From an uncultured Prevotellaceae bacterium (GTDB taxonomy: Bacteria; Bacteroidota; Bacteroidia; Bacteroidales; Bacteroidaceae), in the NCBI GenBank assembly GCA_902778255.1, contig CACYXD010000015.1:1-64000 (forward strand): 64,000 nt of DNA. Reading direction: 5' to 3'. Numbering within the stretch: position 1 is the first letter of the stretch; every line of letters begins with the position of its first letter. Below the pieces are notes generated by a model. The model made no database searches, was not told where the DNA came from, and saw nothing but the letters and a program-made list of their open reading frames with translations. This document shows positions 5,383 through 54,192 of this stretch, piece after piece. The position numbers and the translations under genes are program-made.

Positions 5383-5428
5383 CGAAAATATTAGAGAAAT
5401 AAGATACAAATAAGGAGTTTTTTACGCT

Positions 5429-5536
5429 TTGCGAACAAAAATCGAGGATTTTGCGAACAAAATGCAGATACAAAAGCCTTCAGGAGGTATGCACAATGTT
5501 CCATGAAATATCATTTTGTTCGCAAATTGTTCGCAA
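5429..5536. repeat. Four TTGCGAACAA sites, two direct and two inverted
   Basis: TTGCGAACAA occurs at 5429-5438 and 5451-5460 and its reverse complement at 5516-5525 and 5527-5536. The flanks are also similar (runs of A after the site). The arrangement lies between the structured RNA and the 3' end of tRNA-Met, next to a mobile element, so it could be arm-type recombinase sites or an operator. Neither role is shown by the sequence. Confidence 0.7.
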
Positions 5537-8882: not shown

Positions 8883-9098
8883 GTGAAACGCCATAGAATC
8901 TATCTCATACTGACCATACTGTCACTTCTGACTGCATCGTGTACCGATGGGGAAGGGATGCGGCAGCAGCTGGCCGACCTGCAGATGCGCAACCAGGCCG
9001 ACTCCTTGCTTACCGACGACTCGCTGGCACTCGCCCTCTGCGATTATTTCGACAGCCACGGCACTCCCAATGAGGGAATCACGGGGACAGGTCTTTGA
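8883..9098 (+). pseudogene. Truncated TPR-type lipoprotein, broken at the left end of the RAYT element
   Basis: Starting at GTG 8883, four nt after the -7 box TATCTTTG (8871-8878), the frame gives a lipoprotein signal (LLTASC, Cys20) and then QADSLLTDDSLALALCDYF. This matches the N-terminus of Bacteroidales tetratricopeptide lipoproteins that normally run several hundred residues. Here the frame passes directly into the left end of the RAYT element at about 9080 and stops after GITGTGL. The rest of the gene is absent on the other side of the element. It is therefore a remnant; transcription is still possible, and the transcript would be nearly leaderless. An ATG further upstream (8712) precedes the promoter and was not used. 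Confidence 0.65.
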
Positions 9099-9994
9099 TT
9101 CATATAATAAAAGATGATTCGTCTCGTTATTAGGATAGAACTAATCTTTGATCTATGCCGAGGAAAGAAAGAGAACATAGTGAAACAGGTATCTATCATG
9201 TAATGCTACGTGGTATCAATCGCCAAGATATATTTGACGAAGAGGAAGATTACTGGGCTTTCATCAGAGCACTCTCTTCTATACAATACAGATTGGAAGA
9301 CGACCAAGTGACAAGAATATGTACCTGCCACATATATGCCTACTGCTTGATGCCAAACCATGTTCATCTGCTGCTTTGCGAAAAGGAATGGAAAGTGGGT
9401 GAGGTGATAAAATCCATTGCATCAAGCTATGTACTCTATTACAATAAGAAATATGGTCGGACAGGGCATCTGTTTCAGGATCGCTTCAAGAGTGAGCCGT
9501 GTAATGACTCCGCATATTTCATAACGCTGTTCAGATATATCCATCAGAACCCTGTCAAGGCTGGGATATCGAAAGATGCAAAAGAATACAGATATAGCAG
9601 TTGGGGAAATGACTATCTGGGACTATCTGTTTTAAATACATGTTATATTGATCCGGCAATAAACAGATATGGAATGGACATGCTGACAGAGTGGGTGGTA
9701 TCTCCTTTGACTGATGATGTAGGATGTTTGGAGATGGGGGAACGCGCAATCGTTCCTGATGAAAGAATACGCCAGATGATTCTTGAAAAAAGTAATACAA
9801 TGAGCATTGCGGAGTTTCAGTCTCTTGAAAAGAAAGCGAAACGGGAAATCGTTCGCAGTGCAATGCTTGAAACAGGAATAGGACCTCGCCAGATGGTGCG
9901 TGTTAGTGGCATGACATACTCCGAAATATATAGACTATCAAAGTCATAATAGTTTACATGATGAAGATGAATCAAAGACCTGTCCCCATGATCC
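9078..9994 (+). mobile_element. RAYT (REP-associated transposase) element with inverted ends
   Basis: The left end GGGGACAGGTCTTTGATTC (near 9083) and the right end GAATCAAAGACCTGTCCCC (near 9969) are perfect inverted repeats around the transposase gene. The outermost bases form a longer imperfect palindrome with GATCA/TGATC. The element interrupts a TPR lipoprotein gene on the left, and its right end merges into the reading frame 9958-10539. Confidence 0.85.
9155..9949 (+). CDS. REP-associated tyrosine transposase (IS200-like Y1 HUH family)
   Basis: This 264-residue protein has the RAYT hallmarks: GIYHVMLRG (12-20), the HUH motif MPNHVHLLL (His69 and His71), and the tyrosine-containing helix SSYVLYYNKKYGRTGHLFQ (about 90-108) that should supply the catalytic Tyr. 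YIHQNPVKAGI (about 128-138) is also present. The C-terminal 60 residues form a helix-turn-helix segment of the type often annotated as DnaA-like. Family members cut and join single-stranded DNA at REP sequences. It lies between inverted REP-like ends. Two partial copies of its coding sequence sit in the deleted elements at 12058-12239 and 19823-19990. Catalytic residues look intact, so it may be active. Confidence 0.92.
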   Translation: MPRKEREHSETGIYHVMLRGINRQDIFDEEEDYWAFIRALSSIQYRLEDDQVTRICTCHIYAYCLMPNHVHLLLCEKEWKVGEVIKSIASSYVLYYNKKYGRTGHLFQDRFKSEPCNDSAYFITLFRYIHQNPVKAGISKDAKEYRYSSWGNDYLGLSVLNTCYIDPAINRYGMDMLTEWVVSPLTDDVGCLEMGERAIVPDERIRQMILEKSNTMSIAEFQSLEKKAKREIVRSAMLETGIGPRQMVRVSGMTYSEIYRLSKS

Positions 9995-12268: not shown

Positions 12269-12742
12269 ATGAAACATTTGAATTTATATCTGGTAGCATT
12301 GGTCGTAATGGTTCTTTCTGTTTCCTCCTGCTATAAACTTCATGAGGATGAAGGCCATCACTTCAAGATATATTTCGAAAATCACTGGAATAAGTCCATT
12401 TATATATGGTACGATATTGATTGGCATTGGTATGACAATCCTTACGAAAACTATCTTCCATTGTTTGCAGAAAAACCAATCTATGAAACAGAAGTCTGTC
12501 CTAAGATTCTTCCTGGAGATGTTAACAGTGAACTTATGAAGCACAGAGATTATTATGAAATAGCACTTCAAGATCAAGATTCTGTTGTTATTAGCGTATT
12601 TGATGCAGAACAACCTGATAAGAAAGATTCTGAGTGCTTCCTTGTCCGATATCATCTGTCAAAAGAGGATCTTCAAAAGGTTAACTTTCACATATCTTTT
12701 CCTCCAACAGAGGCTATGCCCTGTGATCCATTACATTATTAA
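12269..12742 (+). CDS. Small lipoprotein, paralogue of 19364-19837
   Basis: This 157-residue lipoprotein (lipobox SVSSC, Cys21) shares with its paralogue the segments LHEDEGHHFKIYFEN, IDWHWYD and YYEIAL. The last 99 nt before the divergent tail are completely identical between the two genes (12620-12718 and 19721-19819). The 5' flank and first codons (from ATAACTAGAATAAAACAT) are identical too, while the centre has diverged. The tail CDPLHY follows a CCTGTGATCC sequence that looks like a degraded REP end. No known family is recognised; an immunity or surface-lipoprotein role is possible. A terminator follows at 12772-12795. Confidence 0.65.
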   Translation: MKHLNLYLVALVVMVLSVSSCYKLHEDEGHHFKIYFENHWNKSIYIWYDIDWHWYDNPYENYLPLFAEKPIYETEVCPKILPGDVNSELMKHRDYYEIALQDQDSVVISVFDAEQPDKKDSECFLVRYHLSKEDLQKVNFHISFPPTEAMPCDPLHY

Positions 12743-12795: not shown

Positions 12796-12826
12796 AGATA
12801 CTACTCAGGGAACTTGCCAATCAAAA

Positions 12827-12868
12827 GGGAGGAACTGCCTGTTCCTAACCGAGGAACAGGCAGCTCCC
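12827..12868. repeat. Large palindrome with 22-nt spaced GGAAC...GTTCC units
   Basis: GGAACTGCCTGTTCC (12831-12845) and GGAACAGGCAGCTCC (12853-12867) start 22 nt apart and together form one long hairpin (GGGAG...CTCCC) with a short loop. It stands in the gap between a terminator and the promoter of the next gene and lacks a T tract. Confidence 0.75.
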
Positions 12869-13044
12869 CAAGAGCATTCTGAGCATATTTTCCAGAGAAT
12901 TCCATGAGGTAATTGGAGCTATTTTTCGTATATTATTGTTTCTTAGGATTTTACGAGCGCCCCCTGTTTGCATATTTTCCATAGGCAACAGATACAACAT
13001 AAGAATATATGTCGTAACTTTGCAACCAGAAAACCCAAACTTAT

Positions 13045-14433
13045 ATGCAAACAAGGACTTGGTACATATTTATTATAAGCATCTTGTTAATTGCCAACAG
13101 TTGCAAGCAGCAGAATCAGCATCCTCAAACAGCAAAGTCTTGTCTGGAGGAAGCAGAAGTTGCTTTGAACAACGATAGTATTCAACAGGGTGAGACTTTA
13201 CTGCGAAAGACCATCCTTTTGTCGGAAGAGGCTGAAGACTGGCACACCCATTATATTGCGTACCAGCGATTAGCAGAATCTCTATCACAAAGCGACCCGG
13301 AGGAGGCATTACGACTAATGAAGAAAGCATTGGCCATCTATGAACAACATCCCGACGATGAACATAATCATGTCATCCTGCTCGACTATGCAGGCACTTA
13401 CAGCGCACAAGTGACATATATCACTGAAGGGGCATACGACGAAGCAGTCGATTTCATCCTTCGTGCATACGACATCGCAAAGAAGAAACAGATGACAGAC
13501 CTCATGTGTCAAACCCTTACCAGTCTTGCAAACATCGCTTGGGCAAAGGAGGATTACCGTCAAGCACTCGACTATGCCCATCTGGCAGAATCTACAGCAA
13601 CAACCGATCTATTACCTGGCACCCTGCAAGTACTTGCCCGCACTTACCTTAGCCTCAACATGCTCGACTCTGCAGAAACGGTCTATCGGCAGATTGAACC
13701 AGGTGATGATGTTCACCTGGCATATATCGTTCAGAGCAATCTTGCCAAGATAGCCCTCCGACGAATGGGAGCCACACAAGTGGAAGACAGCGTGACAGAT
13801 GCATTCGAGCAAATAGAGGGTTTCTATTATCAGGCTCTTGAACAGAAAGACCAGTACTATCAAGAGACTTTGAAGCAGGAAGCGGAGAGCCAGCAACTGG
13901 AATACCGCTCTAAGTTGTATGGCTATACACTCCTTTTCTTCATCATCACATCGTTTCTCGTTATTATGGCAATCATATTGGTGGTGAGGTATCGGATGCG
14001 AGCATTACGTCAGGAGAAACAGCATCTACAGCAAGAGGCAGAATATCAGAAAGTTCAGTTACACCAAGCTAACGAGGTGGTGGCGTTCCTACAGAACTTC
14101 ATCCTCGAACGTACGGAAGTGATAAAGAAGCTCAACCAAAGCAGTGACTCACTCATCACCCTCAAGCCGCACGAATGGAGTGAAATAGAACGTACGCTCA
14201 ACGCCATCGATAACAACCGCTTTGCCAACATCCGCAAACAGCATCCCGATATGCAGGAAGATGATATCCGCCTGTGCATCCTCACTCGCTTGGGGCTCAG
14301 CAACCGCACCATCGGTAACATCTACTGTATTACCATCTCTGCCGTCCAGCATCGTAAGCTCAAGTTGAAGAAGGAAGTCTTTGGAGAAACCAATCCAGAT
14401 ATCACCTTGGAACAGATACTAAAGAACAAATAA
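13045..14433 (+). CDS. TPR sensor-like membrane protein with C-terminal HTH
   Basis: The 462-residue protein has an N-terminal hydrophobic segment ending in a possible lipobox (LIANSC, Cys20) and tetratricopeptide-like repeats to about residue 250 (for example EEALRLMKKALAIYEQH and YDEAVDFILRAYDIAKK). A transmembrane helix follows (about 293-317), then a coiled coil, and a C-terminal helix-turn-helix of LuxR/GerE-like type (DIRLCILTRLGLSNRTIGN and ISAVQHRKLKLKK). Such proteins are common in Bacteroidales and are thought to link envelope signals to transcription; direct evidence is sparse. The -7 box is TAACTTTG (13015-13022). The secreted protein 14446-16533 starts 12 nt downstream and is probably cotranscribed and perhaps its partner. 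Confidence 0.8.
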   Translation: MQTRTWYIFIISILLIANSCKQQNQHPQTAKSCLEEAEVALNNDSIQQGETLLRKTILLSEEAEDWHTHYIAYQRLAESLSQSDPEEALRLMKKALAIYEQHPDDEHNHVILLDYAGTYSAQVTYITEGAYDEAVDFILRAYDIAKKKQMTDLMCQTLTSLANIAWAKEDYRQALDYAHLAESTATTDLLPGTLQVLARTYLSLNMLDSAETVYRQIEPGDDVHLAYIVQSNLAKIALRRMGATQVEDSVTDAFEQIEGFYYQALEQKDQYYQETLKQEAESQQLEYRSKLYGYTLLFFIITSFLVIMAIILVVRYRMRALRQEKQHLQQEAEYQKVQLHQANEVVAFLQNFILERTEVIKKLNQSSDSLITLKPHEWSEIERTLNAIDNNRFANIRKQHPDMQEDDIRLCILTRLGLSNRTIGNIYCITISAVQHRKLKLKKEVFGETNPDITLEQILKNK

Positions 14434-14445
14434 AAACATACAGCT

Positions 14446-16533
14446 ATGAAACGTACATTATTATATTTTGCTTGCATACTAGCATCTGTTACGATGCAAG
14501 CCCAAAAGGAAGCCAACGAATACATTCCTTTGGTAGAGATGGGCAAACAGTGGCATGTGGTTCGGTCTGGTTTCGGCCAAGGCTATCATTTTATCCGATA
14601 TATGCTGACGAATGATAAAGTGGAAAAGTCTGGAAAGACCTATATAAAGATGTCTCGGAGTGAGGATGATTTGGCAGAAGTCTATGATACAGGACTTCTG
14701 CGTGAGGAAGGACGCAAGGTGTATTACTTCGGCTCTGATATGCAAAAGGAGTTTCTGATGTTCGACTATTCTTTAAAGGAAGGCGACACCTATGAAACTT
14801 ATTCGTATGATGAGCAGAAAAAGGTAACATACAAGGTGCTGTCTGTTGGCGATTATAGGGAAGGCCCTAAAGTTACACGCTACGAATATGACGAGAAGGC
14901 AGACAGCATGAACATTCGCCAACGCTTTTTACAGAAATGGACAGTATGTCGTACAGACAACGAGTCAACTCAAAAAACATGGATAGAGGGAATTGGTTCT
15001 CCAGAAAGTCCTTTAGCTAACCTCTACGATGCACGTCCCGTATCTTCCCAAGATTACTTGGCTTATGTAGAAAATCTCAAAGGCGACCTTTATCTGCCTT
15101 TCTCATTCTATGATATGTTCGGATTCGTTCATGGAAACAACATGCCCACGGGAAAAGCAGACTCTTCGGAAGGTGAAAGACATCATAAGCTCATCTACGA
15201 ACAGGAAGATAATCGCCTGCATGTCTATGGAGATGCGTTTACCCAATGCGGACCAAATAACTATGCCTACTTTATCGAGGAACTAACAGATGACCCATTG
15301 GTACGCAAACTTCATTTCGAAATACAGGGAATAGAGCCGCTTGCAGATTGTATGTCACTACATCCGACAGACTTCTATGTCTATGGTTTTGACCCAAATA
15401 TAAGCTACATCGTTGTAGACAATCTAGGAGAAGAGCATCCCGTTGTCAACAAGACGCCACAGATAGCTTATCGTCCGTTCATCGAAGATAATAAGGTATG
15501 GAAAGTAGGTGCTCTAAACACTGGTAATCCTGTTCAACAGGTTGAGTACCTCTACTTTGATGGAGACACTATCATCGACGGAAAGACATGCAAGCAAATG
15601 ATGAGTCAGCGGTATGTCAGCCCAGAGCAACCGGATTATGATATGACAACATCATATCCCATTCTAAGCTATGTGGGAGCATGGTACGAAGAGGCCCAGA
15701 AAGTGTATACCTATAATGCGGCAAACAAGCAGTTCCAACTCATGTACGACTTCTCCCTCGATGCATACGACACCCTGCAGATAAATAATGATTTCATAAA
15801 TTACATACTTAGCCCAAAGAAAACAGGAGGGATAAAAGGTTTCAAGGGCGTATATAGAGATGTCGAGATGCGTACAGACAAAGGACAACGCACTGGCAAT
15901 ACCTCGTGGTTGGAAGGAATAGGAGATTTCGGCGGCCCGATATACGGTCTCTCTTACGGGGAAGAAAGTCGTGAATGGTTCCTAATGTCATGTTCTGTTG
16001 GTGATGAGGTTATCTACCTCAACGATGAGTATGAGGATGGAGCTACTCTTATGCCTGCAGGAGCCTATAGAACCCGTTTCGATTTTACCCATACTATCAA
16101 GACAAAGCCCCGCGTATCGGATATGGAAGGCCCCACAATCTATGGTGAATACAGCGGTCTGCTGTTGGGAATTAATCTTGAAGCACTTGACGATGCTTAT
16201 CTGGTAAGCATTACCAGAGGGAACAGCAACATCGTCTACGAGAAGGCCATCAACGCAGGTAGCACCGTAGCCCTTAGCATTGACATCTCTTCCTATCCCA
16301 AAGACCGTTACACCGTAACTGTGGAGAATAGCCAGGAATCCTTCACTGGCGAGTTCGAAACACAAACGACAACAGGAATCAGCGAAGCTTTACGTCTTAA
16401 CAGAAATGAAGGAATAAGCAGCCACAACATCTATAACCTTCAAGGCCAGCGACTCAATTCCTTGCAGAGGGGCTTGAATATCGTAAATGGGAAAAAGGTG
16501 TATGTTAAGAATCAGAATCAGCAGGGACGCTAA
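14446..16533 (+). CDS. Large secreted protein with C-terminal sorting-like domain
   Basis: The 695-residue protein starts with a signal peptide ending about MQAQ (residue 20). It contains repeated segments of about 50-60 residues (FLQKWTVCRTDNES / WIEGIGSPESPL and TSWLEGIGDFGGPIYGL), indicating two copies of one unit. The C-terminus IYNLQGQRLNSLQRGLNIV followed by NGKKVYVK is the typical Prevotella type IX-like C-terminal signal, so export to the surface or milieu is likely. No enzymatic motif is recognised. It directly follows the TPR/HTH gene by 12 nt. Confidence 0.7.
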   Translation: MKRTLLYFACILASVTMQAQKEANEYIPLVEMGKQWHVVRSGFGQGYHFIRYMLTNDKVEKSGKTYIKMSRSEDDLAEVYDTGLLREEGRKVYYFGSDMQKEFLMFDYSLKEGDTYETYSYDEQKKVTYKVLSVGDYREGPKVTRYEYDEKADSMNIRQRFLQKWTVCRTDNESTQKTWIEGIGSPESPLANLYDARPVSSQDYLAYVENLKGDLYLPFSFYDMFGFVHGNNMPTGKADSSEGERHHKLIYEQEDNRLHVYGDAFTQCGPNNYAYFIEELTDDPLVRKLHFEIQGIEPLADCMSLHPTDFYVYGFDPNISYIVVDNLGEEHPVVNKTPQIAYRPFIEDNKVWKVGALNTGNPVQQVEYLYFDGDTIIDGKTCKQMMSQRYVSPEQPDYDMTTSYPILSYVGAWYEEAQKVYTYNAANKQFQLMYDFSLDAYDTLQINNDFINYILSPKKTGGIKGFKGVYRDVEMRTDKGQRTGNTSWLEGIGDFGGPIYGLSYGEESREWFLMSCSVGDEVIYLNDEYEDGATLMPAGAYRTRFDFTHTIKTKPRVSDMEGPTIYGEYSGLLLGINLEALDDAYLVSITRGNSNIVYEKAINAGSTVALSIDISSYPKDRYTVTVENSQESFTGEFETQTTTGISEALRLNRNEGISSHNIYNLQGQRLNSLQRGLNIVNGKKVYVKNQNQQGR

Positions 16534-16580
16534 ATTAACTCTATTCCCTAATAAATATTATGTATTTATAATTTAAAGTG

Positions 16581-16588
16581 TACCTTTG
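16581..16588 (+). promoter_or_regulatory. -7 box of the first BspA-like gene
   Basis: TACCTTTG, about 30 nt before the chosen start codon. Confidence 0.6.
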
Positions 16589-16618
16589 CACTATCAAAGC
16601 AATTAAAACAATATGGTC

Positions 16619-17743
16619 ATGAAAAAAAACATAGGAACTTTTATGGGTACTAATAAGACTCACGCGAATCCTCACTTCGTGCTGTGTGAAATATGGAATG
16701 TAAAAAGAATCCTTTCGTTATTTGTATGCATATTCTTTGGCAGCATCTTATTTGCCCAAAATGAAGAACCTGGATTGCCTGATCCTCCACCAGCGGTGAC
16801 TATAGACGGATTACTGTATAAATTGTATGAAGATTCACACACAGCAATGATTGCTAATGTGAATAGTTGGGAGGGAGAATTGGAAATACCCGAACAGGTA
16901 ATGTATGACAAGCAGACATATACAGTGAACAAGATTGAATGGCTTGCTTTTGACTTGTGCGAGACGCTGACCAAGGTGAAGATTCCCAAAACAGTGACAG
17001 ATATACAGCATTATGCTGGTCATGATGCCTGCAAGAATCCTTTTAGAGGATGTACTAGTTTAGAGACAATTGAAGTTGACGAAGAAAATCCCAGTATGTG
17101 TTCGATTGATGGAGTCCTGTTCAGCAAGGACAAATCCAAACTTTATTGCTATCCTGCAGGAGCAAAAGCGAAGTCATATAATGTACCTAAAGAGGTGACA
17201 TGGATTGGTGGCGAGGCATTTGCACGTAATTTGTATCTTTGTACCGTTGAAATGCCTAATAGTGTCACTTTCATGGGCTATGGAGTTTTCAGTGGTTGCC
17301 GTAATCTAGAGTCAGTGAGGCTTTCGGAAAACCTCAAATACTTAGACGCTTATACATTCGATAATTGTGAAAGCCTACACGTCCTAGATATACCAAAGAA
17401 TGTGAGTGGATTTGCAGAAAGTGTATTTCGATGGACTCATCTTGATGCATTGGTCGTCAGAGGCACTTTCCCTGCGACTCTACGTAGTGACACCTTTTAT
17501 TTTGTAGATGATTCCATGATTATTTACGCCCAATCGTCAGAGGTTGCAAAGTTTAAGAAGGTGTTTTCTGGCAAAGTACTATCGTTGGAGGATTATGAGG
17601 ATGGAATTAAGACTGGGATTATTGCCCCACGATCTATAGCATCTCTAATAAACCACTCTCTCTTCGACCTCTCGGGCCGTTGCCTCTCAGCTCCGCCTAC
17701 GAAAGGACTCTATATCAAGAACGGGAAGATTGTGGTGAAATAA
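16619..17743 (+). CDS. BspA-type leucine-rich repeat surface protein
   Basis: The mature part consists of BspA/Treponema-type LRR units (LRR_5), for example AFDLCETLTKVKIPKTVTDI, CTSLETIEVDEENPSMCSID and FDNCESLHVLDIPKNV. It ends in a short sorting-like tail (LFDLSGRCLSAPPTKGLYIK then NGKIVVK). Proteins of this class are exported and often bind host or microbial surfaces. The signal peptide is KRILSLFVCIFFGSILFAQ. The preceding 30 residues are unusual, so the true start could be 16619 (ATG AAA) or a GTG near 16683; I chose 16619 as downstream of the promoter. It is similar in layout to 17875-19215 and probably arose by duplication. Confidence 0.78.
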   Translation: MKKNIGTFMGTNKTHANPHFVLCEIWNVKRILSLFVCIFFGSILFAQNEEPGLPDPPPAVTIDGLLYKLYEDSHTAMIANVNSWEGELEIPEQVMYDKQTYTVNKIEWLAFDLCETLTKVKIPKTVTDIQHYAGHDACKNPFRGCTSLETIEVDEENPSMCSIDGVLFSKDKSKLYCYPAGAKAKSYNVPKEVTWIGGEAFARNLYLCTVEMPNSVTFMGYGVFSGCRNLESVRLSENLKYLDAYTFDNCESLHVLDIPKNVSGFAESVFRWTHLDALVVRGTFPATLRSDTFYFVDDSMIIYAQSSEVAKFKKVFSGKVLSLEDYEDGIKTGIIAPRSIASLINHSLFDLSGRCLSAPPTKGLYIKNGKIVVK

Positions 17744-17780
17744 GGAGGCCTGAAGCTATAGAGATCGGATTAGTGTGGAC

Positions 17781-17845
17781 GGTTCTGAATGATTACTTTT
17801 CCCAATAAATATTTGGAAGTAATTGTAATTTTGACTATCTTTGCG
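17781..17845 (+). promoter_or_regulatory. Promoter module A (shared with 20484-20548)
   Basis: A 65-nt stretch from GGTTCTGAATGATTA to TATCTTTGCG is near-identical to the one upstream of 20581-21270. It contains TTTG, a 20-nt spacer and TATCTTTG. Confidence 0.75.
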
Positions 17846-17874
17846 AAATAATTTTACACTAAAAACAAAAAGCT

Positions 17875-19215
17875 ATGAGAAAACGCGATTTGTTTATTAT
17901 GATGCTACTTTCTCTGCTCACATGGCAGAGCACGGTAAAAGCACAGACACGCAGCTTAACTGTTTCTGATATCTATAAAAGCCCTTGCTTGACAAATACC
18001 CGTTCAGCAGAAATCAAAAGTGTACCAACGATTATCTTGAAGAAAGAGGGCGACAGCTTACGAATTGAGTTATATAGAATTGTAGCCAACTGCGGTACCA
18101 GATACTTTAAAATAGCTGCTGATATGAGCGAAGGCAAAGAAGGCTCGCCTAATAGTCTTAGTGTGAGCGTAAAGCCTTTTACTCCCATGGAAGCCGATTG
18201 TACGTGTGACTTTAATGTCTCGTACACGTTACATGGGATAGAGGATAACCGTTTCTATCTAACTTGCTGGTGGTACGACAACCTAGTGGAACTAAAGGAC
18301 GGAGAGCCCCTCGTGTTGGAGCGTATTGTGGAGAAGGTTACTATTGATGGCTTAAAATACTACCTCATCAAAACGATGCAACAAGCCATACTCGAATCGA
18401 ACAAATGTGAGGGTGAACTTCGCATACCTGCAGAAGTAGAATACAATGGGACGGTTTACCCTGTAACCGGCTTATTTAGGTATGCTTTCTGTCATAGTGA
18501 GAATATGACAAAGGTCTTTATCCCAAAGACCGTCAAGAATCTGGAGTATTCTTCTGGGGAGACCATTCATTTCAATCCATTTAACAAATGTGCCAATTTG
18601 GAGTCGATAGAGGTAGACGAGGAAAATCCTTACTTGTGCTCCGTAGATGGTGTATTGATGAACAAGGAAAAGACTGTGATTGTCAAATATCCCGAAGGTG
18701 CTAAACAATCTTCCTACATTATGCCACAAAGTGTAACGCAGATACAAGATTGTGCATTCGCCGATAATGTATATCTGAAGTCATTGAGTATATCTCCTAA
18801 TGTTTACAGGATTGGCATCTATGCTTTTTATGGTTACAAAAACATGACGACATTAGACATACCAGAGAGTGTACATATCATAAATAGCGGCGAATATAGT
18901 AGTGCTTTTTGTGAAAGTAAATTTGACTCATTGATTATTAGAGGAATTATAGATCCTGAGTATATGACTGCAGGCCTGTTCTATGGACTTGATACACAGA
19001 CAAAAATCTATGTGCAACCATCGGAAGTTGAGAAGTTCCAAAAGATTTATAAGGGTAAGGTTTATCCACTATTACCATCAGGCGAGCCTACGGGAATCAG
19101 AGAACATGACAAACCTTCTCCTGCAACAGAAACATTCGACCTTCTGGGACGCAGTATGAAAGACAAGTCACATAAAGGTGTATATATTCAGAAAGGAAAG
19201 AAAGTGGTGAAGTAG
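17875..19215 (+). CDS. BspA-type leucine-rich repeat surface protein
   Basis: The 446-residue protein has a signal peptide (STVKAQ near residue 24) and a unique N-terminal domain of about 140 residues (VPTIILKKEGDSLRIELYRI; YTLHGIEDNRFYLTCWWYD). BspA-like LRR units follow from about residue 150 (MTKVFIPKTVKNLEY, CANLESIEVDEENPYLCSVD, MTTLDIPESVHII). The C-terminus (FDLLGRSMKDKSHKGVYIQ, then KGKKVVK) is a sorting-like tail. The block around IEVDEENP...CSVDGVL is nearly the same as in 16619-17743, supporting a duplication. It is driven by the promoter module at 17781-17845. Confidence 0.8.
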   Translation: MRKRDLFIMMLLSLLTWQSTVKAQTRSLTVSDIYKSPCLTNTRSAEIKSVPTIILKKEGDSLRIELYRIVANCGTRYFKIAADMSEGKEGSPNSLSVSVKPFTPMEADCTCDFNVSYTLHGIEDNRFYLTCWWYDNLVELKDGEPLVLERIVEKVTIDGLKYYLIKTMQQAILESNKCEGELRIPAEVEYNGTVYPVTGLFRYAFCHSENMTKVFIPKTVKNLEYSSGETIHFNPFNKCANLESIEVDEENPYLCSVDGVLMNKEKTVIVKYPEGAKQSSYIMPQSVTQIQDCAFADNVYLKSLSISPNVYRIGIYAFYGYKNMTTLDIPESVHIINSGEYSSAFCESKFDSLIIRGIIDPEYMTAGLFYGLDTQTKIYVQPSEVEKFQKIYKGKVYPLLPSGEPTGIREHDKPSPATETFDLLGRSMKDKSHKGVYIQKGKKVVK

Positions 19216-19283
19216 TCTTAGTGATGACAGAGGGACTGGAGAGAGAAACCTCTTCCTTATAATCAAGAATCGACAGTCTCGTA

Positions 19284-19309
19284 AGAGATCATGGGGACCC
19301 ATGATCTCT
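19284..19309. repeat. Perfect REP-type palindrome
   Basis: AGAGATCATGGG and CCCATGATCTCT pair perfectly around a GA dinucleotide. The GATCATGGGGAC core is that of the RAYT element ends. It lies between the LRR gene and the lipoprotein gene. Confidence 0.8.
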
Positions 19310-19363
19310 AAGTCTTTTGTCGTTATTTATAAAAGCAATAACTAGAATAAAACATATTAAGTT

Positions 19364-19837
19364 ATGAAACATTTGACTTCGTGTTTTTTAATATTAATTG
19401 TAATAGTTTCTTCGTTCTCTTCATGTTTCCCTCTTCATGAGGATGAAGATCATCATTTCATAATATATTTCGAGAATTTATGGAATAAGTCTATCGTGAT
19501 AAATTACCATATAGATTGGCATTGGTATGATGATCCTTTTGAAGCATATTCCGATTCCCTTTTCTTTAAAGAAAAACCATTATCAGAGGGATTGATACAA
19601 TATGAGATAAAACCAGGAGGTATTGATAGTAAACTTATGAAATTTAATGACTATTATGAGATTGCTCTCGAAGATAAAGATTCCGTTGTCATATATGTAT
19701 TCGATGCAGAACAGCCAGACAAGAAAGATTCTGAGTGCTTCCTTGTCCGATATCATCTGTCAAAAGAGGATCTTCAAAAGGTTAACTTTCACATATCTTT
19801 TCCTCCAACAGAGGCTATGGAAGGATCATGGGGATAG
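19364..19837 (+). CDS. Small lipoprotein, paralogue of 12269-12742
   Basis: The product (157 residues) has a lipobox (FSSC, Cys21) and shares LHEDEDHHF, IDWHWYDDPF and the identical C-terminal block KKDSECFLVRYHLSKEDLQK with the paralogue. Its final residues EGSWG and the stop codon come from the REP sequence GGATCATGGGGATAG at the left end of a deleted RAYT element. The native C-terminus has therefore probably been replaced. The function is unknown; presence in an area with an Rhs-type domain makes an immunity role possible. Confidence 0.65.
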   Translation: MKHLTSCFLILIVIVSSFSSCFPLHEDEDHHFIIYFENLWNKSIVINYHIDWHWYDDPFEAYSDSLFFKEKPLSEGLIQYEIKPGGIDSKLMKFNDYYEIALEDKDSVVIYVFDAEQPDKKDSECFLVRYHLSKEDLQKVNFHISFPPTEAMEGSWG

Positions 19838-19990
19838 GTCTTTGATTCATAGACAATAAAAAGGGAGAAATCTCATTCCTAAAGTATAATTAATTGGTTA
19901 TGCCAAGGAAGGAAAGGCAACAGAGCAGTACAGGCATCTATCACGTCATGCTACGTGGTTGGGCGAATCAAAGACCTGTCCCCCTGATCT
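19823..19990. mobile_element. Non-autonomous RAYT element (internally deleted copy 2)
   Basis: The left end GGATCATGGGGATAGGTC and the right end GAATCAAAGACCTGTCCCCC flank a fragment that keeps about 20 N-terminal RAYT codons (MPRKERQQSSTGIYHVMLRG). These differ from the full copy at 9155, so it derives from a different RAYT lineage. The deletion joins the coding start directly to the right end. Confidence 0.85.
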
Positions 19991-20003
19991 CTAGAATTAT
20001 AAT

Positions 20004-20474
20004 ATGAATTCATTTTACAAGTTTTGTAGGTTCTTAGTAGTAACGTCTACCATTATATATGTATCATCTTCATGTCTATTTCTTGGTGATGTAATACATG
20101 TTGTAAAATTCAAGAATTGCACGAACGATACATTATTAGTATGTGCTTCTCATCATGATTGTATAGATAGTGTTGCCTTACTATTATCTTCACTTTACGG
20201 GTTTGATAATGACATACTCGATTCTACAGGGATTTTTCTATGGGATAGAACAGCTGTTAAAGATTATGACTTAATATATCCTGATTCTATATGCGCGACT
20301 ACTGCGGAAGCCTTATTCTCCAATCAAGACACTTGCTATTTCTTTTTAGTCAGATGGAATGATGCAAAGAATTATTCTTGGGATGGGATCCGTGCGAAGA
20401 AACTATATAAGAAATGGATTACAACAAAAAATAAGGATGGAGATTGCGACAGAAATATAAGGTATGACTATTAG
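20004..20474 (+). CDS. Small lipoprotein of unknown function
   Basis: The 156-residue product has a signal segment ending in a lipobox (YVSSSC, Cys24). The mature domain starts FKNCTNDTLLVCASHHDCID and contains the segment YDLIYPDSICATTAEALF. These resemble, weakly, the NTSNDSILIYLARG segment and proline/aspartate layout of 10583-11194, suggesting the same loose lipoprotein group. It follows the deleted RAYT element by 13 nt and may use a promoter inside or upstream of it. No family is recognised. Confidence 0.6.
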   Translation: MNSFYKFCRFLVVTSTIIYVSSSCLFLGDVIHVVKFKNCTNDTLLVCASHHDCIDSVALLLSSLYGFDNDILDSTGIFLWDRTAVKDYDLIYPDSICATTAEALFSNQDTCYFFLVRWNDAKNYSWDGIRAKKLYKKWITTKNKDGDCDRNIRYDY

Positions 20475-20483
20475 CAATCGGTG

Positions 20484-20548
20484 GGTTCTGAATGATTATT
20501 TTTCTCAATAATTATTTGGCGAATATTACAATATTGACTATCTTTGCG
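20484..20548 (+). promoter_or_regulatory. Promoter module B (copy of 17781-17845)
   Basis: This 65-nt stretch matches the module upstream of the LRR gene, with TTTG, a 20-nt spacer and TATCTTTG (20539-20546). Confidence 0.75.
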
Positions 20549-20580
20549 GTATTGTTTGATAATTAAAATTAGGAACAATC

Positions 20581-21270
20581 ATGAAGAATGTGTTTAAGAA
20601 GGTTATAGTTGTGGCTATATTGCTTTGGGGCTCGTTTCCTATAGAGGCGATTGCTTCGCAGAGGAACGGACAAGAAGATGTGGAAACAGATACGACCCAA
20701 GTAAAATGCAAATTCTGCTATAATGACGGTCAACTTATTGGTGGCAATTGGATACTGCTTGACAGTATTATTGTTACTAAGTTGTACTCTAACACGTCTT
20801 TCTTCGGATATGTTTTTTCATCACCCAACAAACAAGTTACGAAGATACTTAAAGAAGATGCACTTTATGTCAGCTACAATGATACACTATACATAAATTG
20901 CCACGTTGCAATGGATGAAACTTTAAATTGTTATTCCAAGGCATATCTTGGGAAATATGATTTGGTGTTTTTTGCAAGTAAAAACGTAGCGAACAAGGGT
21001 GTTGTTGCAGCTTCTGCCGTTGGTTTTGGTTTAATTGGAGGCACTATGGCTTTCGCTGCATCTAACATAACGAGTCAAGCATCCTCAGAGAAGCCTTATT
21101 TCTGGGATATGAGACAAGGCTTTCCTATCTCTATAGACCCCAAATACATGAAAGATCTTTTGTCTAAAAAGAAATTCTTGCTTAAAGAATATAAAAACGA
21201 GAGTAAACATGATAAGAAGAAGCCAGAGGTTGTCATGAAATATTTGCAAAAGATACATATCCTAAAGTGA
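20581..21270 (+). CDS. Hypothetical exported protein
   Basis: This 229-residue protein has an N-terminal signal segment (about 1-26, IEAIAS), a beta-rich middle (LIGGNWILLDSIIVTKLYSN), and a small glycine/alanine-rich hydrophobic segment near residues 143-165 (VVAASAVGFGLIGGTMAFAA) that may be a membrane hairpin. The basic C-terminus is lysine-rich. No family is recognised with confidence. It shares its 65-nt promoter module with the LRR gene 17875-19215, so the two may be co-regulated. Confidence 0.6.
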   Translation: MKNVFKKVIVVAILLWGSFPIEAIASQRNGQEDVETDTTQVKCKFCYNDGQLIGGNWILLDSIIVTKLYSNTSFFGYVFSSPNKQVTKILKEDALYVSYNDTLYINCHVAMDETLNCYSKAYLGKYDLVFFASKNVANKGVVAASAVGFGLIGGTMAFAASNITSQASSEKPYFWDMRQGFPISIDPKYMKDLLSKKKFLLKEYKNESKHDKKKPEVVMKYLQKIHILK

Positions 21271-21284
21271 GATTTTTGTGGAAG

Positions 21285-21316
21285 GGATCATGGGGACACA
21301 CCTGTCCCCCTGATCC
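21285..21316. repeat. Minimal RAYT-end palindrome
   Basis: GGATCATGGGGACA (21285-21298) and TGTCCCCCTGATCC (21303-21316) face each other with only four nt between them. This is what remains if everything between the element tips is deleted. Confidence 0.75.
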
Positions 21317-21318
21317 AT

Positions 21319-21388
21319 GAAACTATCAGTTTCTGCCATTGAAACTGTCAGTTCCAAGGCGTGGTACTGATGTGAAACAGCCTGTTTC
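21319..21388. repeat. GAAAC-N5-GTTTC palindromes with 22-nt spacing
   Basis: GAAACTATCAGTTTC (21319), GAAACTGTCAGTTCC (21341) and GAAACAGCCTGTTTC (21374). The first two start exactly 22 nt apart and the third a further 33 nt on. Confidence 0.7.
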
Positions 21389-21472
21389 TTCAGTGATTCA
21401 AAAAATAATTTCCGGATATTCCCCCTTTTACTATCATTTTTATTACTTTTGCATCCAAAATAAGGAACTATT

Positions 21473-22456
21473 ATGATACAAGCCATGATACGACTGAGCC
21501 GCTGGCTCGCTGGCAATGCCTCGCTATTTATTATCGCCATTGCCATACTGACCTTCTTTCTGCCTGAACTCTTCGTGTGGGTGAGAGGCACCACGCAGAC
21601 CGTCATTCTTGGCATTATCATGCTGACGATGGGACTAACGCTGACTACTGATGACTTCCGCATACTAGCCCGCAGACCTCTGGATATTCTTTTAGGTACG
21701 TGCGCACAATTTCTCATCATGCCATGCGTCGCCTATCTGTTAACACGAGTGTTTCATCTGGAGCCAGCCTTAGCATTGGGCATATTGCTGGTGGGGTGCT
21801 GTCCTGGTGGCGTGTCGAGCAACATCATGTCGTATCTCTGTCATGGTGATGTGGCCTTCTCGGTGGGCATGACCTGCGCTTCTACCCTACTCGCCCCCGT
21901 CATGACACCCATGTTGATGCAACTCACGGCTGGAGAGATTATTGAAATAGATGCCATCGGCATGTTCCTGAATATTCTGATCGTGACGATTATCCCTGTT
22001 GGAATCGGCTGTTTCCTGAATTACACTTATTCCAAGAACAAGCATTTCCCTACCATACAAAGCCTGATGCCTGGCCTCAGTGTGATCAGTCTGGCTTGCA
22101 TCGTAGGTGGGGTTATTTCAACAGTACACGATGACTTGATAGCTCGCGGGCTGTGGCTCTTCCTATGGACCTTTGCGGTGGTGTTCTGTCACAACACGCT
22201 GGGCTATATCCTCGGCTATACGGCAGGTCGCATAGCTGGCTTTAATCAAGCTAAGAAGCGCACCATCAGTATTGAGGTGGGTATGCAGAATGCGGGACTT
22301 GCCACAGTTCTTGCCGGCAACTTCTTCGCCGCCCAGCCACTGGCCGTACTACCTTGTGCCATCAGTTGCGCCTGGCATAGTATCAGTGGCACCATACTGG
22401 CTGGCATCTTCCTCCGTTTTGATAAGAAAACGATCAAAGTCCTTGTAGATCGTTAA
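21473..22456 (+). CDS. BASS-family (bile acid:sodium symporter-like) transporter
   Basis: The 327-residue protein has about ten hydrophobic segments and the family signature GCCPGGVSSNIMSYL (about 103-117), plus the second conserved region EVGMQNAGLATVLA (about 263-276). BASS members carry bile salts or organic anions with sodium; in free-living bacteria the substrate is usually unknown. The -7 box TACTTTTG (21444-21451) gives a 20-nt leader before ATG 21473. It is monocistronic or followed by the YdcF gene 48 nt on. Confidence 0.88.
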   Translation: MIQAMIRLSRWLAGNASLFIIAIAILTFFLPELFVWVRGTTQTVILGIIMLTMGLTLTTDDFRILARRPLDILLGTCAQFLIMPCVAYLLTRVFHLEPALALGILLVGCCPGGVSSNIMSYLCHGDVAFSVGMTCASTLLAPVMTPMLMQLTAGEIIEIDAIGMFLNILIVTIIPVGIGCFLNYTYSKNKHFPTIQSLMPGLSVISLACIVGGVISTVHDDLIARGLWLFLWTFAVVFCHNTLGYILGYTAGRIAGFNQAKKRTISIEVGMQNAGLATVLAGNFFAAQPLAVLPCAISCAWHSISGTILAGIFLRFDKKTIKVLVDR

Positions 22457-22503
22457 GAATTTCTCACAGCGGACAGCAGGGACAGGTGGGAAAGAAAGCA
22501 AGC

Positions 22504-23160
22504 ATGAAAAAGAGAGTAATAAGAATTTGTGCGTGGATTATTGGCGTTTTTGCTGTTGTATGTCTGGCGTTGATGCTGATATGCAATCAGATTGTGGTGC
22601 ACAATGCTGAAGGCAAGGTATTCTCTGACATCGACAGCATAAAGTATAATAAAGTGGGGTTGTTGTTAGGGACGACTCCAAAAGCGAGGATTGACAGGAT
22701 TACGAACTACTTCTTTATCTATCGCATCGATGCGGCAGAGCAGTTGTATAAGGCTGGGAAGATTGAGCAGATTCTAATCAGTGGTGATGAGCATAGTCTG
22801 GATGGTGTCAACGAAACAGAATGCATGAGAGATTCGTTGGTGGCGCGAGGAGTTCCTGCGAATGCAATCATTCTAGATGGTAAGGGCTACAGGACGATTT
22901 GTTCTGTTATCAATGCCAACAAGGTGTATGGTCTGAAGAGTTTTACTATTATCTCGCAGCAGTTCCACAACGAGCGGGCCATCTATCAGGCAGAGCACCT
23001 TGGTTTGGATGTGGAGAACATTCAGGCATATAACGCTAAGGAGCCAAAATCAGCGCGAGCATATCTTACCACGATTCGTGAATACTTTGCGAGGGTGAAG
23101 TTGTTCATCGATTTATTCACTTACGACGATAAAATGAAAACACCTAACCACCTACCATAA
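22504..23160 (+). CDS. YdcF/SanA-family (DUF218) envelope protein
   Basis: The protein has one N-terminal transmembrane helix (about 8-28) and an extracytoplasmic DUF218 domain with VGLLLGTTPKARID, EQILISGDE, GVPANAIILDGKGYRTICSV and IISQQFHNERAIY. SanA/ElyC relatives support envelope integrity or polysaccharide metabolism. I chose ATG 22504 over the GTG at 22486 because of the typical MKKR start. The last residues TPNHLP and the stop codon are encoded by a GGTAGGTG-type repeat (23138-23160) that continues downstream, so the native C-terminus may have been changed. Confidence 0.85.
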   Translation: MKKRVIRICAWIIGVFAVVCLALMLICNQIVVHNAEGKVFSDIDSIKYNKVGLLLGTTPKARIDRITNYFFIYRIDAAEQLYKAGKIEQILISGDEHSLDGVNETECMRDSLVARGVPANAIILDGKGYRTICSVINANKVYGLKSFTIISQQFHNERAIYQAEHLGLDVENIQAYNAKEPKSARAYLTTIREYFARVKLFIDLFTYDDKMKTPNHLP

Positions 23161-23405
23161 TAGGTCTGAAACCCCGATGTATAAAGGGTTTGAGGCATGG
23201 TAGGTGTTTGGCAAACACCTACCATACACCTACCATATTTTATAAAAGACCTCAATTAACCCGTCAACTTGATCTAGTCGAAAGACAGAAAACTGACAAC
23301 CAAAATCAGCGAACTACAATAAGTGTCATTTCTACATTTATGGTAGGTGTTAGGTTAGGTGTATGGTAGGTCTTTGGTAGGTGTTTGAGCAACACCTACC
23401 ATATG
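23138..23405. repeat. GGTAGGTGT repeat clusters in both orientations
   Basis: ACACCTACCAT and its complement ATGGTAGGTGT recur in three clusters (23138-23160, 23197-23240, 23339-23403). The second contains a perfect ATGGTAGGTGTTTG / CAAACACCTACCAT palindrome. The third has four units spaced 11-12 nt apart followed by an inverted copy. The first cluster encodes the end of the upstream gene. Confidence 0.8.
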
Positions 23406-23524
23406 TAAGACGCTCTATACCAAATAGTTAAATCAAAAACATTAGGTGTTGGCCATTTTTTGCGAAATAGCCTGTTTTTGATGCTAAAACAGCATGAATG
23501 AGGATACCAAATAGCTTGTTTGGG

Positions 23525-23568
23525 ATTGCAAAGAAGCTGCAAACGCATCGTAAAGAGGCTGCAAACGG
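23525..23568. repeat. Two 22-nt tandem units (GCTGCAAAC type)
   Basis: ATTGCAAAGAAGCTGCAAAC at 23525 and ATCGTAAAGAGGCTGCAAAC at 23547 begin consecutive 22-nt units directly before the next array. Confidence 0.7.
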
Positions 23569-23573
23569 ATCGA

Positions 23574-23653
23574 GATGTGCCCGTTCGCGGGTCACGAGCT
23601 AGGCGTTCGCGGGTCACGAGCTAGGCGTTCGCGGGTCGCGAACCGGCACATCC
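23574..23653. repeat. Three 22-nt TTCGCGGGTCACGAGC units inside a hairpin
   Basis: GTTCGCGGGTCACGAGCTAG begins units at 23583 and 23605, and a variant follows at 23627. The array is bracketed by GATGTGCC and GGCACATC, which can pair. The same core word occurs at 53354. Confidence 0.8.
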
Positions 23654-23839
23654 TCCCTTGTGAACCTGCAGTTCTTTCGCCAGGGCAGGCAAGTCTTTCG
23701 TATATGTTTCCCAAATGAATAGTGGACTAGTTGTGTAATAGCCATGCACAAGTACATAAGATCCAAAAAGCCATACTTTCAGGACGGGTTGTGTCTTGAA
23801 GTAGTCGGCAATTTTTTGTTGCATTGCTTGTGTACACAT
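23621..23839 (-). pseudogene. Remnant of an MNT-type nucleotidyltransferase (antitoxin-like)
   Basis: The first 30 residues (MQQKIADYFKTQPVLKVW, then LFGSYV) match the start of minimal nucleotidyltransferases, whose GSxARG motif follows directly. Here the motif breaks after GSY and the next residues do not continue the fold; the required aspartates (DxD) are missing. A segment LPALAKELQVHKGG may be a later piece or a partner remnant. A -7 box TATTTTTG is present upstream on the minus strand. The 3' end runs into the 22-nt repeat array. Such genes usually pair with HEPN toxins, and none is visible here. Confidence 0.5.
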
Positions 23840-23924
23840 AAGCGATACGTTTTGGTGTCGCCTGCAAAAATAAAAATTATTTTTTAATAAACAAAATTAT
23901 GGGATGAAAAGTTTACAGCTCCTT

Positions 23925-24034
23925 TTTCTGTTTTAGGCTCCTTTGCGTTGCGTTTCAGCCTGTTTTAGGTTGCGTTTAAGCCTATTTCACCTCGCGTTTC
24001 AGGCTGTTTCGCATTGCGTTTTAGGCTCCTTTAC
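23925..24034. repeat. Five 22-nt tandem units (GTTTCAGGCTGTTT type)
   Basis: Units begin at 23925, 23947, 23969, 23991 and 24013 and follow the pattern TTGCGTTTYAGSCTSTTT. The core is related to the GAAACAGCCTGTTTC palindrome at 21374. A partial inverted copy (CCTAAAACAGGCTGTTTCG) follows to 24055. Confidence 0.8.
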
Positions 24035-24176
24035 AACCTAAAACAGGCTGTTTCGTAAAAACTTATGATAGAAGTCTCTCAATAGATCATGGAGGTGAAG
24101 AAAGACGAGGTGGTCTTGCATTATTCCGATTAACATATATTAATAGTCGCTGGTGATATTTTATTAAGAAAATACT

Positions 24177-53344: not shown

Positions 53345-53399
53345 AAGTGGTACTTCGCGGGTCACGAGCTAGGGGTTCGCGCCCTTCGAACTGCCACTT
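53345..53399. repeat. Hairpin with a TTCGCGGGTCACGAGC core, sister of 23574-23653
   Basis: TTCGCGGGTCACGAGCTAGG (53354) is shared with the array at 23583. A second TTCGCG begins 22 nt later (53376). AAGTGG and CCACTT bracket the core and can pair. It lies in the gap between the convergent protease and trpA genes and may serve as a terminator. Confidence 0.7.
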
Positions 53400-54192
53400 A
53401 TTTATTCAGGGCAGCAAACAGCTGATCAAGGGCAGCATCGACATCGCCGTTAGCCTCGTTCAGGAGAGTGACGAACTTGCTGCCGATGATAGCGCCAGCA
53501 GCATTATCTTGGGCGGCCTTCAGGGTCTGGGCATTGCTAATGCCGAAGCCGATCATGCGCGGATTGCGCAGGTTCATGGCGTTGATGCGGCGGAAGTATT
53601 CCTGCTTCTGGTCATCAAAATTCTTCTGGGTGCCAGTGATAGCGGCTGAGCTGACCATATAGATGAAGCCATCGGTATGGTCATCGATGAATCGGATGCG
53701 CTCCTCGCTGGTTTCAGGAGTTATTAGCATGATGACGCGCAAATCATAGCGGTCGGCAACAGGCTTCACGATATTCAGATAGTCGTCGAAGGGCAGGTCG
53801 GGAATGATCATGCCGCTAACGCCGGCCTCTACGCACGACTGACAAAAGGCCTCGATGCCGTAATGGAGGATGGGATTCAGGTAGCCCATCAGTACGAGGG
53901 GAATCTCTACCTGGTCTTTGATGGCTTTCAACTGCTTAAAAAGCAGTTTCACGCTCATACCGTTTTTCAGAGCCTGTGTGGCAGCACTCTGGATGACGGG
54001 ACCGTCGGCCAGCGGGTCGCTGAAGGGAATACCAACCTCAATCATGGCGATGCCTCTTTTTTGCATCGTCAGAATGACATCAGCCGTGCTCTCGAGGGTA
54101 GGGCAGCCTGCACAGAAATAGAGAGACAGCAACTTTCTGTCGCCGCGATTATTGAAAAGCTGATTGATTTTATTTTCCATTGTTAATTGCAT
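53398..54192 (-). CDS. trpA: Tryptophan synthase alpha chain
   Basis: TrpA cleaves indole-3-glycerol phosphate and passes indole to TrpB. The 264-residue protein shows [19 protein letters not shown] (Asp/Glu of the active site), [27 protein letters not shown], and [13 protein letters not shown] near the end. It is the last gene of the trp operon and starts 23 nt inside the trpF gene. Confidence 0.96.

Follow-up and report, generated by a model that had tools for sequence, protein, structure and literature searches.

Between the genes of Prevotella-like bacteria and of other genera of their family lie short tandem arrays whose unit sequences are unrelated but whose period is the same, 22 nt, a pattern suggesting that the spacing matters more to some part of the cell than the letters do. 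The first-pass annotation of the window (the whole stretch of 64,000 nt analysed here) had claimed a common spacing without a common sequence, and the samples, drawn from the genus and from further genera of the family, confirm it. On these samples the arrays are apparently a non-coding interspersed class with family-specific sequences. The 124 arrays of period 22 found in stretches of 16 genomes (genus and family) fell into 46 sequence clusters, against 0-12 arrays and 0-9 clusters at every other period from 15 to 30. The periods 20, 21, 23 and 24 gave 6, 6, 9 and 8 clusters, respectively, 21 and 23 being no commoner than 20 and 24. The annotation had named the lack of a peak at lag 22, or an even spread of spacings, as what would speak against it, and neither was seen, because 46 clusters have period 22 and 0-9 have any other. 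For clustering, each array was represented by one consensus unit, and the units of a genome were compared in every rotation and on both strands with a cutoff of 68% identity, after low-complexity and N-containing units had been dropped; the procedure is rough and splits some families, such as family iii of the relative G139, and does so equally at every period.

The lack of a common sequence holds within genomes as well as between them. G139 carries three unrelated families, all at 22 nt (GTGC/GCAC, TTATTTTCATGAAAATAA and GCCCTTTTG). The G016 pattern has 449 matches in G016 with both strands taken together, a count that is partly double because the unit is near-palindromic, and that of G024 occurs 18 times in G024 but in none of five further genomes of the genus. 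Among the 52 cluster units compared we found no common sequence and, by eye, no end motif common to the families.

In the window itself, inspection by eye recovered the 22-nt steps annotated at 12831/12853, 21319/21341 and 23583/23605/23627, as well as those at 23525/23547 and five times from 23925, whose starts we read as about 23530/23552 and about 23930. The two-unit array at 12831..12867 (no strand assigned) has GGAAC-N5-GTTCC-type dyads at a 22-nt step within a lag-22 segment of 12809-12867, and lies, by eye, beyond a terminator-like hairpin and T-run that follow the stop codon at 12742. The two-unit array at 21319..21355 (no strand assigned) combines GAAAC-N5-GTTTC with GAAAC-N5-GTTCC, begins 48 nt after a stop codon at 21270, and adjoins a hairpin containing the core of the repeat that flanks the RAYT transposase gene of the window. 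A composite array follows, its class B part at 23487..23575 (CAAACGCATCG / TAAAGAGGCTG; no strand assigned) sharing one lag-22 segment with the class A array at 23582..23641 on the + strand, in which TRF counts 2.7 units of GTTCGCGGGTCACGAGCTAGGC. The class C array, at 23930..24027 on the + strand, has five units beginning with GCGTTTNAGSCTGTTT and then, by eye, one inverted unit to about 24055. The distant class A pair 53354/53376 (53353..53397, + strand) also keeps the 22-nt step; it lies between convergent genes and adjoins the tryptophan synthase alpha gene (trpA, 53398-54192), and its lag-22 score is below 11, yet it is a one-mismatch copy of the unit at 23583. One further 22-nt pair, absent from the annotation, lies at 5428..5462 (unit TTTTGCGAACAAAAATCGAGGA; no strand assigned). 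The 15-nt palindrome GAAAC-N5-GTTTC attributed to the units is thus found at 21319, and at 12831 in the form GGAAC-N5-GTTCC, but not in the arrays at 23583 and 23925.

TRF reports period 22 in the window at 23530-23572, 23582-23641 and 23946-24021. Its 25 intergenic regions contain five ungapped lag-22 segments scoring at least 11, one of them the pair at 5428, where 50 Markov shuffles lead one to expect 0.16 and never gave more than 1. Among lags 5-60, those of 44 and 22 stand highest in the window's intergenic autocorrelation. The class A 21-mer occurs 16 times in the genome of the window (G000) at up to three mismatches and not at all in 59 relatives at up to two; the class C pattern, at up to one mismatch, occurs 103 times in G000 but in none of 59 other genomes of the genus. 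Carriage of class C by phages was considered too and rejected, the viral collection searched having no exact match to it. An Rfam search of the window returned one tRNA only and no match at an array.

Following the annotation's proposal, we computed the autocorrelation of intergenic DNA over a sample of 400 kb from the 3.51 Mb of G000 (20 stretches chosen by position; 28,171 intergenic bases). Lag 22 came out on top of lags 5-69 (0.294, naive z 8.4), followed by lags 7, 21 and 6 (z 7.3, 6.9 and 5.9, respectively), lags 44 and 66 were also raised, and the coding DNA of the sample gave no autocorrelation signal at lag 22. With sample and window taken together, intergenic segments scoring at least 15 numbered 13 at lag 22, 8 at lag 44 and 6 at lag 66. 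The sole higher count was that of lag 7, with 18 intergenic segments but also 19 in coding DNA, where no lag-22 segment reached this score. TRF likewise gave 17 intergenic rows of period 22 and one coding row in the G000 sample, and in a second sample of G139 lag 22 accounted for 46 segments, while no other lag from 15 to 30 exceeded 6. Arrays of period 22 were present in 8 of the 11 genomes sampled in the genus, the three array-free ones having been sampled with 20 kb each, and in 4 of the 5 sampled from other genera of the family. Over all stretches and loci of the genus, 274,189 bp of intergenic DNA held 115 arrays (4.19 per 10 kb; one of the 115, in locus L139, is an 11-nt repeat), and the other genera gave 14 in 64,931 bp (2.16 per 10 kb); other families of the order gave two arrays in 46,017 bp, both in locus L224. 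These figures come from sampled stretches with one genome per species, in which G139 and G000 dominate; arrays of one family are non-independent events, and the gene limits are crude longest-ORF calls by which some short genes were counted as intergenic.

Several observations bear on whether the spacing is maintained. We sought the consensus unit of each array just outside its edges (234 edges) and, at a threshold of 13 of 22 positions, found 11 outer units at exact phase, none at +-1 or +-2, and single or double cases at -4, -3 and +3, the shuffled control giving a single case each at +2 and +3. With the threshold lowered to 12, 17 outer units stood at exact phase and 4 at +-1/+-2, where the control also gave 4. 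Neighbouring units are 75% identical over 117 arrays, and the usual ratio in bacteria is one indel per roughly ten or twenty substitutions; with a quarter of the positions changed, neutral decay should therefore have left indels. However, the array caller favours unbroken arrays, and those broken by indels may escape it, so that the spacing argument is supportive rather than proof, and weaker than the raw counts make it look. Among near-identical tandem repeats the periods scatter, with 22 in 5 of 15, whereas 89 of 189 diverged ones stand at 22 and 35 more at 44 (Fisher p = 0.055, periods of 44 and above left out). Although the numbers are small, this contrast is what maintenance, and not generation at 22, would give.

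The arrays are short: 25, 41, 34, 10 and 5 of the 117 round to 2, 3, 4, 5 and 6 units, respectively, and 7 and 11 units occur once each. Over these arrays nucleotide identity has no 11-nt sub-period (0.247 at lag 11); the G016 arrays have one in their pattern of A/T versus G/C (0.71 at lag 11). Segments at lag 11 number 8 in G000 and 0 or 1 elsewhere, and a period of 33 was seen in one array. Dyad symmetry exceeds mirror symmetry in 49 of 72 arrays, against 25 of 77 control repeats of other periods, and is weak in G000 and G016 (6 of 13 arrays each). The annotation was right that palindromes are frequent in the units, 30 of the 52 clusters reaching 6 of 8 dyad pairs and 12 reaching 6 of 8 mirror pairs, but they are not universal, 22 clusters being without a clear dyad. 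The two arms also tend to change together, with 33 columns of paired, two-sided change against 16.4 in 300 shuffles (sd 2.8, maximum 23). This set comprised 88 of the 117 arrays, 46 from G139 and 4 from G000, the other 29 being too short, containing N or having no clear dyad; a smaller set of 50 arrays gave 27 columns against 11.7 shuffled.

The position of the arrays relative to genes is biased. Genes were called on either side of 117 arrays. Convergent pairs enclose 36 of these against 20.9 expected by length, same-strand pairs 61 against 66.9, and divergent pairs 20 against 29.2 (chi-square over the three classes, p = 8e-4), and 43 of the 61 same-strand arrays are nearer the end of the upstream gene. 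The annotation's statement that all sit directly downstream of genes therefore survives as a tendency only, given the 20 divergent cases and, in the window, the arrays at 23487 and 23930, which begin 326 and 769 nt past the preceding stop codon. A terminator precedes the array at 19 of 133 array-facing gene ends and stands within 200 nt at 71 of 582 array-free ends, which gives no link to terminators. No Pfam family occurred in more than 2 of the 70 neighbour genes scanned (of the 94 nearest; best 25 of 152 families), the largest family count among 70 of 732 background genes being 3. Rfam searches of seven array-bearing stretches gave six matches above the gathering score, none at array coordinates; lysM-Prevotella RNA was matched in a G139 stretch. 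Beside trpA, a search of 398 genomes of the genus, our own included, gave 79% as the best other match. The 3′ neighbour of trpA was readable in 24 of the 29 loci of relatives (7 convergent, 16 on the same strand, 1 missing), and in these 24 no orthologous empty site demonstrated an insertion. Locus L149, of genome G208, has period-22 arrays of unrelated sequence beside trpA; L139 has the 11-nt repeat mentioned above. A replichore polarity of the G016 unit was also considered and rejected, both strands being alike in the sampled stretches.

The reading that we favour, tentatively, is that these are BIME-like interspersed repeats which may serve as rows of candidate protein sites, one per two helical turns. 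It draws on the 46 clusters at 22 against at most 9 elsewhere, the three G139 families at one period, the raised lags 44 and 66 and the outer units at exact phase, and also on the paired arm changes, the excess of dyads, the convergent preference and the phase dependence known from plasmid iterons. Each unit would be an operator-like binding site, often with two-fold symmetry. A dimeric DNA-binding protein could occupy successive units, so that its copies line up along one face of the DNA at intervals of two helical turns and stack cooperatively, much like initiator proteins on iterons. Selection would then act on the spacing, and the sequence could drift provided that an array's units change in step with one another and the two arms of each unit do likewise. 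Families would spread inside a genome and be replaced from species to species, in the manner of REP/BIME families, and the preference for convergent and 3′-side positions might reflect either that arrays are tolerated there or that they help to insulate or condense the DNA between transcription units. Several results sit less easily with candidate protein sites. A clear dyad is missing from 22 of the 52 clusters, and the symmetry is weak in G000 and G016. Phasing on one face, taken alone, would predict many periods of 11 or 33 as well, yet lag 11 is represented mainly in G000 and period 33 by a single array; and the RNA folding of most of the arrays picked for that purpose (described below) counts against them, since a DNA site needs no RNA fold. 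No candidate for an array-linked binding protein emerged, and none of the families listed recurred in more than 2 of the 70 neighbour genes.

Of the two mechanisms offered in the annotation, proteins that read the spacing fit somewhat better than one common way of making arrays, given the phase of outer units, the diverged repeats at 22 and the paired arms. A bolder form, which we consider unlikely, is that a conserved machine reads the periodicity itself, loading on any two-turn array, so that sequences turn over and the spacing is frozen. If so, geometry rather than sequence would define this class of chromosomal element. Sequence is the usual means of finding and classifying repeats, and this class becomes visible only through its period. 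In the sampled genus 10 kb of intergenic DNA holds about 4 arrays, so that whatever reads or makes them may be basic to the chromosome biology of the family, and the constraint is clean and testable: 22 bp, not 21 or 23.

An enzyme that generates a fixed unit is the other mechanism, and it belongs to a wider explanation in which hairpins would provoke slippage or template switching, or a transposase would act on a 22-nt structural unit, leaving selfish or neutral arrays, MITE- or minisatellite-like and without function. We hold this to be possible, if on the doubtful side. In its favour, the families are scattered over many loci and genome-specific, as the matches of the G016 and class C patterns show. 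In family ii of G139, 12 of 14 segments measure 78-93 nt, or some four units, many have GAATTA/TAATTC-like ends, and by eye the flanks appear unrelated and show no target duplication; inverted ends are visible by eye in this family and around class A elements. The BrickBuilt element of Porphyromonas gingivalis, with its 23-nt units, is a precedent, and quasi-palindrome correction can also yield paired arm changes. Against generation stand the scatter of near-identical repeats and the concentration of diverged ones at 22, albeit at a p of only 0.055, the families' lack of a common sequence or end motif, and the array-bearing genomes G088 and G139, in which a transposase search confined to the Y1_Tnp family had no match. 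That last result also weighs on a more specific origin, by which the RAYT (Y1) transposase encoded at 9155-9949 would have mobilised the arrays as REP/REPIN elements, and which is very improbable. A Y1_Tnp gene does lie within the window, with four matches in the genome, and REPs are likewise described as extragenic, palindromic and species-specific (PMC2817692). However, this gene is flanked by an inverted repeat of its own (GATCATGGGGACAGGTCTTTGATTC, 7 copies with up to three mismatches) that by eye is unlike the arrays, the 52 cluster units have by eye no common GTAG-type tag, and arrays are frequent in G088 and G139, where the PF01797 (Y1_Tnp) profile gave no match (these two and G000 being the array-bearing genomes searched). 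We therefore rejected a RAYT/REP origin. The best named relative of the transposase, at 61% identity, is from an uncultured Prevotella from sheep. This relative, and the lysM-Prevotella RNA in G139 as a member of the same genus, are the grounds for regarding the host as Prevotella-like; the family is Bacteroidaceae.

The arrays could also act as strings of RNA hairpins, transcribed past gene ends and serving in mRNA 3′-end protection, in termination or as a protein sponge, a role that we judge decidedly unlikely. Seven of eight hand-picked arrays fold better as RNA than their shuffles (z -2.5 or lower), and in 46 arrays pairing jumps from 0.24-0.38 at distances 1-3 to 0.65 at distance 4, the smallest hairpin loop. 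This hairpin signature keeps a role in RNA or single-stranded DNA in play, although its loop edge blurs once the G139 sample is enlarged. Sense-strand G.U pairs exceed A.C pairs (29 versus 17), the same-strand arrays crowd towards upstream gene ends, and class A shares the strand of the nearest upstream gene in 7 cases against 3 opposite. However, the G.U excess is non-significant (p = 0.10, and 0.09-0.19 in a second test), class C is 5 same to 3 opposite and family iii of G139 5 to 7, the G016 array tested folds like its shuffles (z -0.07), and single class C units are no hairpins by eye even though the whole window array reaches z -4.97. DNA folding parameters split the eight picked arrays in the same way, 20 of the 117 arrays stand between divergent genes, and no Rfam family was found at the arrays tested. 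A role in DNA is favoured over one in RNA because the G.U excess is non-significant, the strand is mixed and the G016 array and single class C units are poor hairpins. Finally, single two-unit cases such as that at 12831 could arise by chance or as a scanning artefact, but for the class as a whole the probability of this is negligible: lag-22 segments scoring at least 13 number 57 against 0.38 expected in G139, 16 against 0.14 in G000 and 14 against 0.08 in G016 (50 Markov shuffles per genome).

Among known systems, the comparison begins with Porphyromonas gingivalis, a member of the same order as the array host. The nearest described element that we found is its BrickBuilt MITE (PMC4596501), which resembles the arrays in having tandem units of about two turns that are intergenic, dispersed and species-restricted, with predicted stem-loops; the same paper mentions 22-nt tandem repeats in P. 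gingivalis W83 as well, without locations. BrickBuilt differs in its 23-nt unit, its single sequence family of 1 to 22.8 units and its leader and tail with small terminal inverted repeats, whereas our arrays have 22-nt units, dozens of unrelated clusters and mostly 2-6 units, with 46 clusters at 22 and 9 at 23. Among the matches listed, the open-licence literature gave no report of a lineage-wide 22-nt period.

Plasmid iterons (PMC4980987) are alike in another respect. Their units measure 17-22 bp in the plasmids named there, and they are read cooperatively in dependence on helical phase: separating two iterons by half a helical turn abolishes the cooperativity. Iterons, however, are origin arrays read by a Rep protein, whereas here many arrays lie along the chromosome, and among the Pfam families listed none recurs in their neighbour genes. 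Nor do they resemble CRISPR arrays, the units being contiguous and about 25% divergent, with no spacers. With REP, BIME and REPIN elements they have in common that they are extragenic and multi-copy, often palindromic (the 30 of 52 clusters), and form species-specific families with a regular spacing within clusters. REPs, however, retain a tag in their sequence and are accompanied by a RAYT (PMC2817692), while the arrays keep a period and not a sequence; by eye no GTAG-type tag runs through the cluster units, and neither G088 nor G139 gave a RAYT match. With the period kept and the sequence not, Y1_Tnp absent from G088 and G139, and the repeat around the RAYT gene a different one, we class the arrays as interspersed palindromic/minisatellite repeats defined by their period.

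Dyad arrays of period 22 were also found in G505, a genome from another family of the order (L224:2696-2859), and since this genome lies outside the family, the phenomenon may extend beyond it. In G208, another genome of the genus, two period-22 arrays (L149:2652-2799) are located within a 182-nt region adjoining trpA, the tryptophan synthase alpha gene that also neighbours a class A pair in the window, and they differ in sequence from the window's arrays. When stretches of G139, G026 and G004 (L126, L066 and L132, respectively) were compared by eye, some array families of different species were seen to have pieces in common, for example AAAGACGCC or GGTGGCC linkers. These shared pieces hint at a common descent of the array families accompanied by sequence drift.

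Composite intergenic elements occur at several loci, namely window 23161-23641, L010, L011 and L022, the last being inverted. Their order is constant across loci, with an 11-nt repeat (TGGTAGGTGTT / ACACCTACCAT) followed by class B and then class A. Adjoining the class C array, a 91-aa stop-to-stop frame on the minus strand (window 23621-23896) resembles, by eye, a fragment of a minimal nucleotidyltransferase, and locus L039 holds a region with 85% identity over 323 nt.

The window also carries a RAYT-like Y1 transposase gene (9155-9949), within a region, 9077-9993, that includes its flanking repeats, GATCATGGGGACAGGTCTTTGATTC being present on both sides in inverted orientation (9077, plus strand; 9969, minus strand). 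Seven copies of this repeat, allowing up to 3 mismatches, were found in the window's genome. The core of this RAYT repeat, GGGGACAGGT, lies on the minus strand at 21300 within a hairpin (21290-21319) that the two-unit GAAAC array immediately adjoins. Two inverted GATCATGGGGACAGGTCTTTGATTC pairs, at window 19824/19965 and G000:C38:13555/13595, are REPIN-like in appearance.
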